In this document: positions 12,772 to 59,165 of the stretch, piece by piece
Layout: each line of letters starts with the position of its first letter
Position numbering within the stretch: the stretch's first letter is position 1
The notes under the pieces: generated by a model
The model's database searches: none
The model's input: the letters and a program-made list of their open reading frames with translations, nothing else
Told to the model about the DNA's origin: nothing
Source: Leifsonia sp. TF02-11
GTDB taxonomy: Bacteria > Actinomycetota > Actinomycetes > Actinomycetales > Microbacteriaceae
NCBI RefSeq assembly: GCF_017565305.1
Contig: NZ_JAGEKP010000003.1
Coordinates: 186,001-250,000, forward strand
Length of the DNA stretch: 64,000 bases
Direction of reading: 5' to 3'
Made by a program: the position numbers and the translations under genes

Positions 12772-12867
12772 GCGGCATCCACCCTTCAATGATGAAGCGC
12801 AGGAACTATCAGCGACCGTCGCGGTTCGGGCACGCGTGCCCCGGCGAGATCCATCGCCGCTGGACCA

Positions 12868-18710: not shown

Positions 18711-18741
18711 GGGGGTGACAGCAGATGCTGGACACGCCACC

Positions 18742-18783
18742 CCTGACCGTGTATGGTCAGGAACCCTGCGCCGCCCGGCGCAG
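18742..18783 (+). ncRNA. Two stable hairpins at the head of the rtcB leader
   Basis: Hairpin 1 has CCTGACC (18742-18748) pairing with GGTCAGG (18755-18761) around a 6-base loop. Hairpin 2 has CTGCGCC (18766-18772) pairing with GGCGCAG (18777-18783) around GCCC. Both stems are perfect and sit upstream of a small ORF and rtcB. I recognise no known RNA family; they could end the lrp transcript or form a regulatory leader. Confidence 0.5.
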
Positions 18784-18821
18784 ACGGCCCCGGCGGCACG
18801 CTCACGAAGGAGGGAACCAGG

Positions 18822-18893
18822 ATGCGGAATTCCGCTGATCTGAAGCGCTATCAGCGCACCCTCCGACTGAGCGAGCGCTCTCGGGGTCTGTAG
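18822..18893 (+). CDS. 23-residue leader peptide candidate upstream of rtcB
   Basis: An ATG at 18822 is preceded by AAGGAGGGAACC, a ribosome site as strong as any in the window. The peptide starts MRNSADLKRY, has six arginines in 23 residues and ends at TAG 18891-18893. A 14-bp palindrome (18898-18911) and a 9-bp hairpin (18915-18939) follow before rtcB, the layout of a translation-coupled leader. It may instead be a small functional protein. Coding status is inferred from the ribosome site alone. Confidence 0.45.
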   Translation: MRNSADLKRYQRTLRLSERSRGL

Positions 18894-18897
18894 CACC

Positions 18898-18939
18898 GCA
18901 TCCGCGGATGCCCGCAGCCCCGGCCGTTTACCGGGGCTG
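18898..18939 (+). promoter_or_regulatory. Hairpins between leader peptide and rtcB
   Basis: GCATCCGCGGATGC is self-complementary (18898-18911). CAGCCCCGG (18915-18923) pairs with CCGGGGCTG (18931-18939) around a 7-base loop. No U-run follows, so a translational or processing role is more likely than simple termination. The remaining bases to 19012 contain only the rtcB ribosome site region (GAAAGGA). Confidence 0.5.
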
Positions 18940-19012
18940 TCCCTTCATCTCTCCCGTCACATCGGGGAGCGTGGACCGTCCCGGCCCACCCCTGAGAAGA
19001 GACGAAAGGACA

Positions 19013-20188
19013 ATGGAGAGAATCTCGAACCGCCTGCTCAACTGGGCCTCCCTGCTGGAGGACCGGACGAGAGACCAGGCGGTCACCACCTCGCGGATGC
19101 CGTTCATCCACCCCCACCTCGCCTTGATGCCGGATGCGCACCTGGGCCTCGGTGCGACGGTCGGCTCGGTCATCCCCACCCTCGGCGCCGTCATGCCCGC
19201 CGCCGTGGGTGTAGACATCGGCTGCGGGATGATCGCTGTGCGCACCCAGTTCACGCGGGAGGACGTCGAGAGTGTCGCCGCCCCGCTGTCGGCACTGCGT
19301 GAGGCGATCGAGCGCGCGATTCCGCTCTCGGCCGGCGGCAAGAACAACCGGGTGGTCGCGACCGCTCAGCCGCGCGTCGACGAGCTCATCCGGATGGCGG
19401 ACGACATCGGGCTCGAACCGGCCGACCACGTGAAGGACTGGCAGCGTCAACTCGGTTCGCTCGGATCCGGCAACCACTTCATCGAGGTGAGCCTGGACGA
19501 GACCGACACTGTGTGGCTGTTCCTGCACTCCGGGTCTCGCGGCGTGGGTAACCGGATCGCCGGCCACCACATCAAGGTCGCCCAGACGTTGATGGAGAAG
19601 TGGTGGATCGAGCTCCCGGATCGTGATCTGGCCTACCTCGTCGAGGGCACGCCGGAGTTCGACGCGTACATCGCGGAACTGCGGTGGGCGCAGCATTTCG
19701 CGCTGCTCAACCGTGAGGAGATGATGGATCGCGTGGTCCGCCAGACCGAGGAGTACTTCGGTACGGCGGTCGTGGAGCGTGAGCGCATCAACTGCCACCA
19801 CAACTTCACGGAGCGCGAGCGTCACTTCGGCAAGGAGGTGTGGGTGTCGCGCAAGGGCGCCATCTCGGCCAGGGAGGGCCAGCTCGGCCTCATCCCCGGT
19901 TCGATGGGGACGGCGTCCTACGTGGTCGCAGGCCGGGGCAACCCGCTCGCACTGCACTCGTCGCCGCACGGCGCCGGGCGGCAGTTCTCGCGGTCGGCCG
20001 CCCGCAAGGCGTTCACGATCGACCAGCTGCGTGAGGCCATGACCGGGATCGAGTTCCGCGACACGGACGCGTTCCTCGACGAGATCCCCCAGGCCTACAA
20101 GCCGATCGACCAGGTGATGGCGGACGCGGCGGACCTCGTGGAGATCCGGCACACGCTGCGACAGATCGTCAACGTGAAGGGGAACTGA
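19013..20188 (+). CDS. rtcB: RtcB-family 3'-phosphate RNA ligase
   Basis: The 391-residue protein joins RNA 2',3'-cyclic phosphate or 3'-phosphate ends to 5'-OH ends using GTP and Mn2+. Metal ligands are recognisable: MPDAHLG, GVDIGCGM (D68 and C71), LGSGNHFIE, HSGSRGVG and CHHNF. The GTP-binding histidine region is SSPHGAGRQFSRS. It repairs tRNAs cut by toxin nucleases. It is of the short actinobacterial type, with no archease or rtcA neighbour. It stands alone behind an unusual 300-base leader. Confidence 0.93.
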   Translation: MERISNRLLNWASLLEDRTRDQAVTTSRMPFIHPHLALMPDAHLGLGATVGSVIPTLGAVMPAAVGVDIGCGMIAVRTQFTREDVESVAAPLSALREAIERAIPLSAGGKNNRVVATAQPRVDELIRMADDIGLEPADHVKDWQRQLGSLGSGNHFIEVSLDETDTVWLFLHSGSRGVGNRIAGHHIKVAQTLMEKWWIELPDRDLAYLVEGTPEFDAYIAELRWAQHFALLNREEMMDRVVRQTEEYFGTAVVERERINCHHNFTERERHFGKEVWVSRKGAISAREGQLGLIPGSMGTASYVVAGRGNPLALHSSPHGAGRQFSRSAARKAFTIDQLREAMTGIEFRDTDAFLDEIPQAYKPIDQVMADAADLVEIRHTLRQIVNVKGN

Positions 20189-59081: not shown

Positions 59082-59165
59082 TGCGCGAGGGGGGACTTGA
59101 ACCCCCACGCCCTTGCGGGCACTGGCACCTGAAGCCAGCGCGTCTGCCAATTCCGCCACTCGCGC
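59082..59165 (-). tRNA. tRNA-Leu (anticodon CAG)
   Basis: Read on the minus strand, the acceptor stem is GCGCGAG/CTCGCGC with discriminator A. The D-arm region is GGCGGAATTGGCAGACGC, the anticodon arm CTGGC-TTCAGGT-GCCAG gives anticodon CAG, a long variable arm marks a class II tRNA, and the T-arm is GGGGGTTCAAGTCCCCC. CCA is not encoded. It is on the opposite strand to the following operon, about 150 bases away. Confidence 0.96.

Follow-up and report, generated by a model that had tools for sequence, protein, structure and literature searches.

What bacterial RtcB repairs, and how its gene is switched on outside the RtcR-controlled enterobacteria, are poorly known, and the rtcB locus of Leifsonia sp. 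TF02-11 raises the question of whether an RNA leader exerts that control. In the window analyzed here (the whole 64,000-nt stretch), a sequence-only reading had proposed that a leader peptide and an RNA switch govern the ligase gene, possibly by sensing arginine tRNA damage. Among the matches listed from the open-licence PubMed Central literature, no rtcB leader came up.

Layout of the leader in the window

Upstream of the leader lies a gene of the Lrp/AsnC family (Pfam AsnC_trans_reg, 1.5e-17) and downstream of it rtcB; the single downstream ORF examined had no Pfam match. All of the elements listed in the sequence-only reading, i.e., the hairpins, the Shine-Dalgarno (SD) site, the 23-codon ORF with six Arg (hereafter uORF), the 14-bp palindrome, and the 9-bp hairpin, are present (Table 1), although two of them require another interpretation. 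Specifically, the first of its two hairpins overlaps the -10 box of the sole sigma70-like promoter found and, therefore, probably precedes the transcript, and it is not kept in eight aligned relatives. The palindrome proved clade-specific, being missing from the aligned relatives L007 to L009, and would form the apical part of an antiterminator. As a separate observation, the inverted repeat on the -10 box could be an operator, though the aligned relatives do not conserve it.

Table 1. Features of the rtcB leader and their positions in the window
Feature	Position	Strand	Basis
Sigma70-like promoter, TGGACA-17-TATGGT	18729..18757	+	Promoter search: 1 found, 0.1 expected
Inverted repeat CCTGACC/GGTCAGG (N6 between; perfect; the first hairpin)	18742-18761		Seen in sequence
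5′ hairpin CTGCGCCG-CC-CGGCGCAG, near presumed transcript start	18766..18783	+	Seen in sequence
SD site of uORF, GAAGGAGG	18806..18813	+	Seen in sequence
uORF, 23 codons, six Arg, MRNSADLKRYQRTLRLSERSRGL	18822..18893	+	ORF reading and relatives
Arm A′ (putative antiterminator 5′ arm, inside last uORF codons)	18881..18891	+	Pairing tests
14-bp palindrome GCATCCGCGGATGC	18898..18911	+	Sequence and alignment
Arm A, common to putative antiterminator and terminator hairpin	18914..18923	+	Pairing tests
9-bp hairpin (A:B)	18915-18939	+	Seen in sequence
Arm B, partner of A (18931-18939) or of C	18931..18942	+	Pairing tests
Pyrimidine tract 3′ of hairpin, U-poor in this window, CCCTTCATC	18940..18955	+	
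Arm C, complement of B	18973..18984	+	Pairing tests
SD site of rtcB	19004..19010	+	Seen in sequence
rtcB, RNA ligase	19013..20188	+	Pfam RtcB 2e-120

The RNA from 18762 to 19030 folds better than 200 out of 200 dinucleotide shuffles (z = -4.81). Two complementarities had been overlooked in the sequence-only reading: the end of the uORF (arm A′) pairs with arm A, i.e., the 5′ arm of the 9-bp hairpin, and arm C complements the 3′ arm of that hairpin. The predicted energies are -26.2 kcal/mol for the antiterminator and -18.9 kcal/mol for the terminator. The window's leader is a weak example of its family (see below) with respect to its Gln count (the uORF contains one Gln only), its tract after B, and the terminator scan, a simple version of which yielded 0 U-rich terminators at the leader.

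A known RNA family (T-box, riboswitch, or another Rfam class) was considered and rejected, since no Rfam 15 match of the leader reached its gathering score. Allowing E-values up to 1 returned four sub-threshold hits only, all to animal families, the best of which, to the CPEB3 ribozyme, scored 20.6 bits (gathering score, 35; E = 0.0044). Elsewhere in the window, Rfam placed a fluoride riboswitch at 12793-12867 (RF01734, 36.2 bits) and a tRNA gene at 59082-59165 (RF00005, 54.2 bits), both on the minus strand.

Leaders upstream of rtcB in the Micrococcales

The leader was sought in other genomes with a detector that has three requirements: an SD site, an ORF 15-60 codons long, and, ≤60 nt from the ORF stop, a GC-rich hairpin containing a CGGGG-like motif. 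Once duplicates (identical last 200 bases) had been removed, 100 out of 174 distinct regions were positive. Five were discarded as spurious before the statistics (L021, L127, L170, L078, and L081; the first two later appeared genuine by eye), and the 95 used lie upstream of distinct rtcB genes of the Micrococcales. The leader is genuine and conserved in relatives. These 95 leaders comprise 47 from loci around RtcB relatives (best 80 of 592 confirmed), L001 to L009, and 39 others. L001 to L009 (L001 being the window's own genome) were collected by leader DNA, which matched 10 of 40 genomes, including a 29-base match, L010. Both L010 and L011 were excluded before detection; the latter, from Leifsonia virtsii, has the closest named RtcB relative among the matches listed (84% identity) and carries the same uORF as L009. 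Further upstream stretches were taken from family, order, and class samples. Twenty additional positives called by eye, including four of a Demequina type with a different hairpin, enter the distribution counts only and stand outside the statistics.

The distribution of RtcB itself is patchy: it occurs in 61 of 299 Microbacteriaceae genomes (E-value 1e-100), 96 of 396 genomes of the order (1e-150), and 25 of 296 genomes of the class (1e-160). Among the 63 Microbacteriaceae loci that form the examined part of 66 RtcB places, 46 have the leader (35 by the detector and 11 by eye), while the 17 negative loci hold RtcB copies of 65-71% identity (14 loci) or 73-76% identity (three loci). In the order and class samples, 19 of 59 loci were positive, five of them by eye, and four of these five have the Demequina-type hairpin. 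Genera with the leader include Microbacterium, Curtobacterium, Agromyces, Herbiconiux, Subtercola, Frondihabitans, Glaciihabitans, Rathayibacter, Labedella, and Brevibacterium, and it is also found in metagenome-assembled genomes (MAGs) of Salinibacterium, Arthrobacter, and Renibacterium. Outside the Micrococcales, none of 17 new class-level loci (L191 to L207), read by eye, had the leader.

Several loci show other arrangements upstream of rtcB. The Demequina-type loci (L069, L183, L208, and L209) have a different hairpin, GCCCACACGACCGTGGGC, 3′ of a short ORF, which may be a diverged version of the attenuator proposed below. In three leader-free class-level loci (L193, L197, and L200), an element resembling GCAnnnCGAAAACC recurs, by eye, within ~110 nt upstream of rtcB and may reflect a different mode of rtcB control there. 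In Flexivirga caeni (L049) and in L160, rtcB is preceded, again by eye, by a longer ORF and then a strong hairpin whose tail is T-rich. Finally, a tRNA-Tyr (gta) gene lies at 2331-2414 of the Zafaria cholistanensis locus (L078), ~90 nt upstream of rtcB at 2501.

The general layout of the leaders is as follows: promoter, 5′ hairpin, SD site, uORF, hairpin A:B, and rtcB. Strict sigma70-like sites were found upstream of the uORF in 21 leaders (0.3 expected by shuffling) and between the hairpin and rtcB in 0 of 95; the latter says little, because shuffles also give just 0.3 per 95. Hairpins of at least 6 bp occupy the 5′ position in 90 leaders (42 expected). The uORFs range from 18 to 52 codons, start with ATG (n = 75) or GTG (n = 20), and stop with TAG (n = 55) or TGA (n = 40). 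Arm A begins a median of 16 nt (minimum, 9 nt) after the uORF stop, rtcB lies a median of 83 nt beyond the end of B, and 54 of the 95 leaders have at least 5 T among the 9 bases after B. Because the uORF and the A:B hairpin were detection criteria, finding them does not count as independent evidence. Taken by itself, the hairpin is unremarkable, since the pattern for GC hairpins of this general sequence matched in 27 of 80 family genomes.

Composition of the uORF and pairing of its 3′ end

We then compared the uORFs of 24 independent close pairs. A ratio of Ka to Ks below one, the check named beforehand for a functional peptide, was not obtained: pS and pN were both 0.098 (ratio, 1.01; 0.78 and 1.07 in the other two frames), and this ratio was therefore rejected as proof of a functional peptide. 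Over the last six codons and the stop, 97% of bases are kept, and residue identity is 97% in the last six codons and 79% in the rest. The first of these two identities would be expected if it is the RNA arm A′ that is being preserved. From these comparisons, it seems that translation and the 3′ end of the uORF matter, not the peptide.

Relative to 200 flanking ORFs, the uORFs are richer in Gln (9.1% versus 2.7%) and Arg (12.3% versus 8.2%), have Tyr and Asn raised 1.8-1.9-fold, and are poorer in Gly, Ile, Met, Cys, and Trp. When the uORF body (one per cluster) was set against the N-termini of flanking ORFs, a control that uses the leftmost start and may contain untranslated codons, Gln was still fourfold up (9.4% versus 2.3%), whereas Arg was nearly level (12.3% versus 11.7%), which weakens Arg as the main signal. 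Gln also stayed high against shuffling within codon positions (267 versus 185, SD 10), as did Arg and Glu. Every one of the 95 uORFs contains Gln (~54 expected), and every one likewise contains Arg and Leu; by expectation, 41 would lack Gln, 8 Arg, and 6 Leu. The codon CAG occurs 250 times in the uORF frame and 16 and 21 times in the other frames.

Within the uORF body, Arg is nevertheless more strongly conserved in the 24 close pairs than any other residue (93% versus 79% overall; p = 1.3e-6, uncorrected for 20 residues), with Gln at 85% (p = 0.06), and CGC makes up 221 of the 292 body Arg codons, against 44% in flanking ORFs. Arg is thus conserved and CGC-biased but not clearly enriched, so that the arginine sensing proposed earlier is supported in part only, by conservation and codon choice but not clearly by abundance. 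QR pairs are doubled (25.0 versus 12.4 expected). The motif +X+, at which ribosomes stall in the macrolide-type manner, was rejected as a candidate, being halved (10.6 versus 20.0 expected).

Gln is scarce toward the end of the uORF, with 14 occurrences in the 570 positions of the last six codons. Counted from the stop (n = 95), codons 1-6 hold 1, 1, 7, 4, 0, and 1 Gln and codons 7-9 hold 17, 13, and 13; the scarcity is not clean, as Gln rises again to 7.4% at codon 3 and 4.2% at codon 4. The last six codons are where a ribosome would cover A′. By arithmetic with the usual ribosome footprint, a stall at codon 7 from the stop would leave approximately the last 12 nt free, where A′ lies.

Three pairings, A′:A, A:B, and B:C, emerged from the folding of these leaders. 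In a scan of 18-nt windows, arm A bound more strongly than its shuffled versions, by 1.65-1.74 kcal/mol (SE 0.22-0.23), a gain confined to windows centered 5-10 nt upstream of the last base of the stop codon (means elsewhere, -0.6 to +0.7). Partners of A over the whole upstream part showed no enrichment (6 of 95 at the 5% level), and a pairing of A just anywhere upstream was rejected. When a ribosome was modeled on the ninth codon before the stop and B was taken as not yet transcribed, the antiterminator left exposed had a mean energy of -20.4 kcal/mol versus -13.9 kcal/mol with its 5′ part shuffled, and all 39 uORF clusters gave a negative z (mean, -2.4; p = 3.6e-12). The A:B terminator hairpin has a mean of -20.0 kcal/mol, and such near-equal predicted energies would suit a switch. 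If the ribosome is positioned on the stop codon, every one of the 95 leaders folds into A:B; with a stalled ribosome, the terminator is still favored at equilibrium in 74 of 95, and folding order must therefore matter. The search for B:C gave a score of 24.0 versus 18.8 in shuffles (mean z, 1.75), with 36 of 95 leaders in the top 5%.

Next, each arm was tested on its own leader against arms from other clusters (39 clusters). This swap test favored the native partners for A:B (p = 4.9e-8; 5.3e-8 in the reverse direction), B:C (p = 4.4e-5), and A with the last uORF codons (p = 0.014), while the controls, i.e., A with the uORF body, the 5′ leader, or the downstream region and B with the uORF end or body, were null (p = 0.16-0.62). 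Because the clusters are related, these p values serve as guides. Arms B and C can be seen to change together, as in L071 (GGTACGGGG and CCCCGTACC), L177 (GGTGCGGGG and CCCCGCACC), and L116 (GCTCGGGGC and GCCCCGAGC). Comparison of the leaders thus lends good support to the earlier proposal that a leader peptide and an RNA switch control rtcB. The initial observation is confirmed and extended, and its interpretation, right in kind, is partly supported; the emphasis moves from arginine and a conserved peptide to the translation of a drifting, Gln-rich uORF that ends in an antiterminator arm.

A probable ribosome-mediated attenuator and its alternatives

Taken together, the leader is probably a ribosome-mediated (leader-peptide) attenuator of rtcB that would turn the gene on when translation stalls. 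Behind this reading stand features obtained by comparing sequences: the parts and their spacing, the three pairings, the lack of peptide-level constraint, and the Gln enrichment with scarcity near the stop. Such an attenuator has a translated short ORF with a ribosome site, to which the uORF and SD site of the 95 leaders (a detection criterion) and the in-frame CAG bias point, and an antiterminator arm that overlaps the uORF end and competes with the terminator arm, as A′ appears to do. It would further have an intrinsic terminator with a U-tract and regulatory codons at which a stalled ribosome leaves the antiterminator arm unoccupied; on these points, only 54 of the 95 leaders have at least 5 T after B, the scan gives no terminator in this window, and the scarcity of Gln near the stop is not clean at codons 3 and 4, with a single Gln in the uORF of this window. 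Also weighing against the reading are the equilibrium preference for the terminator with a stalled ribosome and the unenriched whole-upstream search for partners of A.

We infer termination and read-through, the direction of control, the role of C, and the signal as follows. A ribosome reading the uORF to its stop would cover A′ and leave A, located ≥9 nt past the stop, uncovered; A would then pair with B, and transcription would end upstream of rtcB. If ribosomes stalled in the uORF body, or if the uORF were untranslated, A′ would pair with A and leave B free, polymerase would read on, and B would then pair with C, which may hold the leader open and free the rtcB SD site. The likeliest signal would be slowed decoding within the uORF body, where Gln CAG and Arg CGC codons would be the preferred places to stall; the ligase would thereby be tied to damage of tRNAs or ribosomes.

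Colicin D cleaves arginine tRNAs, and a Gln CAG-rich uORF with conserved Arg CGC would suit the sensing of such damage, although tRNA loss and general stalling are not separated here. Tentatively, the system may form a closed repair loop, a possibility we would not call probable: the uORF body would sense tRNA damage, its Gln CAG and Arg CGC codons setting the tuning, damage (e.g., by an anticodon nuclease) would deplete these tRNAs and stall ribosomes upstream of A′, and rtcB would be transcribed so that the ligase mends the same tRNAs, the A/B/C exchange adding a second, translational gate.

The stall could instead come from drugs. In the antibiotic-responsive leaders of erm and whiB7, drug-stalled ribosomes on a uORF open the downstream gene, and codon identity would carry little weight if rtcB were opened likewise. 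The RNA logic (A′:A, A:B, and the antiterminator) would be identical, and PMC5175333 describes E. coli rtcAB as activated by translation-impairing agents and as aiding survival of ribosome-targeting antibiotics. However, the depletion of the macrolide-type motif +X+ speaks against this explanation, which also leaves the enrichment and position of Gln unexplained, and we regard it as doubtful.

It is unlikely that control is mainly translational, i.e., that the exchange of B:C and A:B exposes or hides the rtcB SD site with little termination of transcription. In its favor, SD accessibility averages 0.33 when A:B is forced and 0.64 when B:C is, an increase seen in 81 of 95 leaders, the tract after B tends to complement the rtcB SD site (mean z, -0.79; SE 0.16; 22 of 95 at the 5% level), and many leaders have U-poor tracts after B. 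Yet part of the accessibility change is topological, coming from the nested model itself, and this window shows no such change (0.44 to 0.46), and the T-rich tracts found after B in 54 leaders also count against it. Ensembles with B:C forced are less stable on average than those with A:B forced (-71.2 versus -79.0 kcal/mol).

We find it very improbable that the locus merely encodes a translated small transcript whose own ordinary terminator lets through a constant flow to rtcB with no sensing: the commonness of similar GC hairpins and the neutral peptide agree with this, but the A′:A and B:C pairings and the constant geometry would go unexplained. Finally, that the leader RNA is cut and re-ligated by RtcB, or that a cut state favors B:C, giving feedback on rtcB, deserves almost no credence, its sole support being the position before rtcB and the A:B/B:C exchange, with the uORF geometry left unexplained.

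If the ribosome-mediated attenuator is the correct reading, its conservation in the Micrococcales would name the input of rtcB (stalled translation), and its leader offers swappable codons for learning which tRNA or ribosome damage matters. Its peptide evolves at a near-neutral rate while the frame, last codons, and Gln content are kept, and protein-based gene finding would miss such a leader.

The trp, his, and leu attenuators of amino acid operons are likewise leader-peptide, ribosome-mediated devices, with which the rtcB leader shares a short translated uORF, a mutually exclusive antiterminator and terminator, and ribosome position as the input. In contrast to those, it would control an RNA ligase rather than biosynthesis, has scattered Gln and Arg codons rather than a run of one regulatory codon, and gives the terminator arm B a second, downstream partner, C; the terminator here is a predicted one. 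As in the erm and whiB7 leaders, uORF translation would choose between alternative hairpins in response to translation trouble, but the rtcB leaders are depleted in +X+ and their peptide is not conserved. In E. coli, rtcB responds to damage of the translation machinery, as described in PMC5175333 and PMC12606134, and rtcBA is under a protein activator, RtcR, with a CARF domain and a sigma54 promoter (PMC12606134). The link of rtcB to translation-machinery damage would thus be common to both systems, whereas the device differs: in the rtcB leaders, it would be a uORF-bearing RNA that acts in cis behind a sigma70-like promoter.
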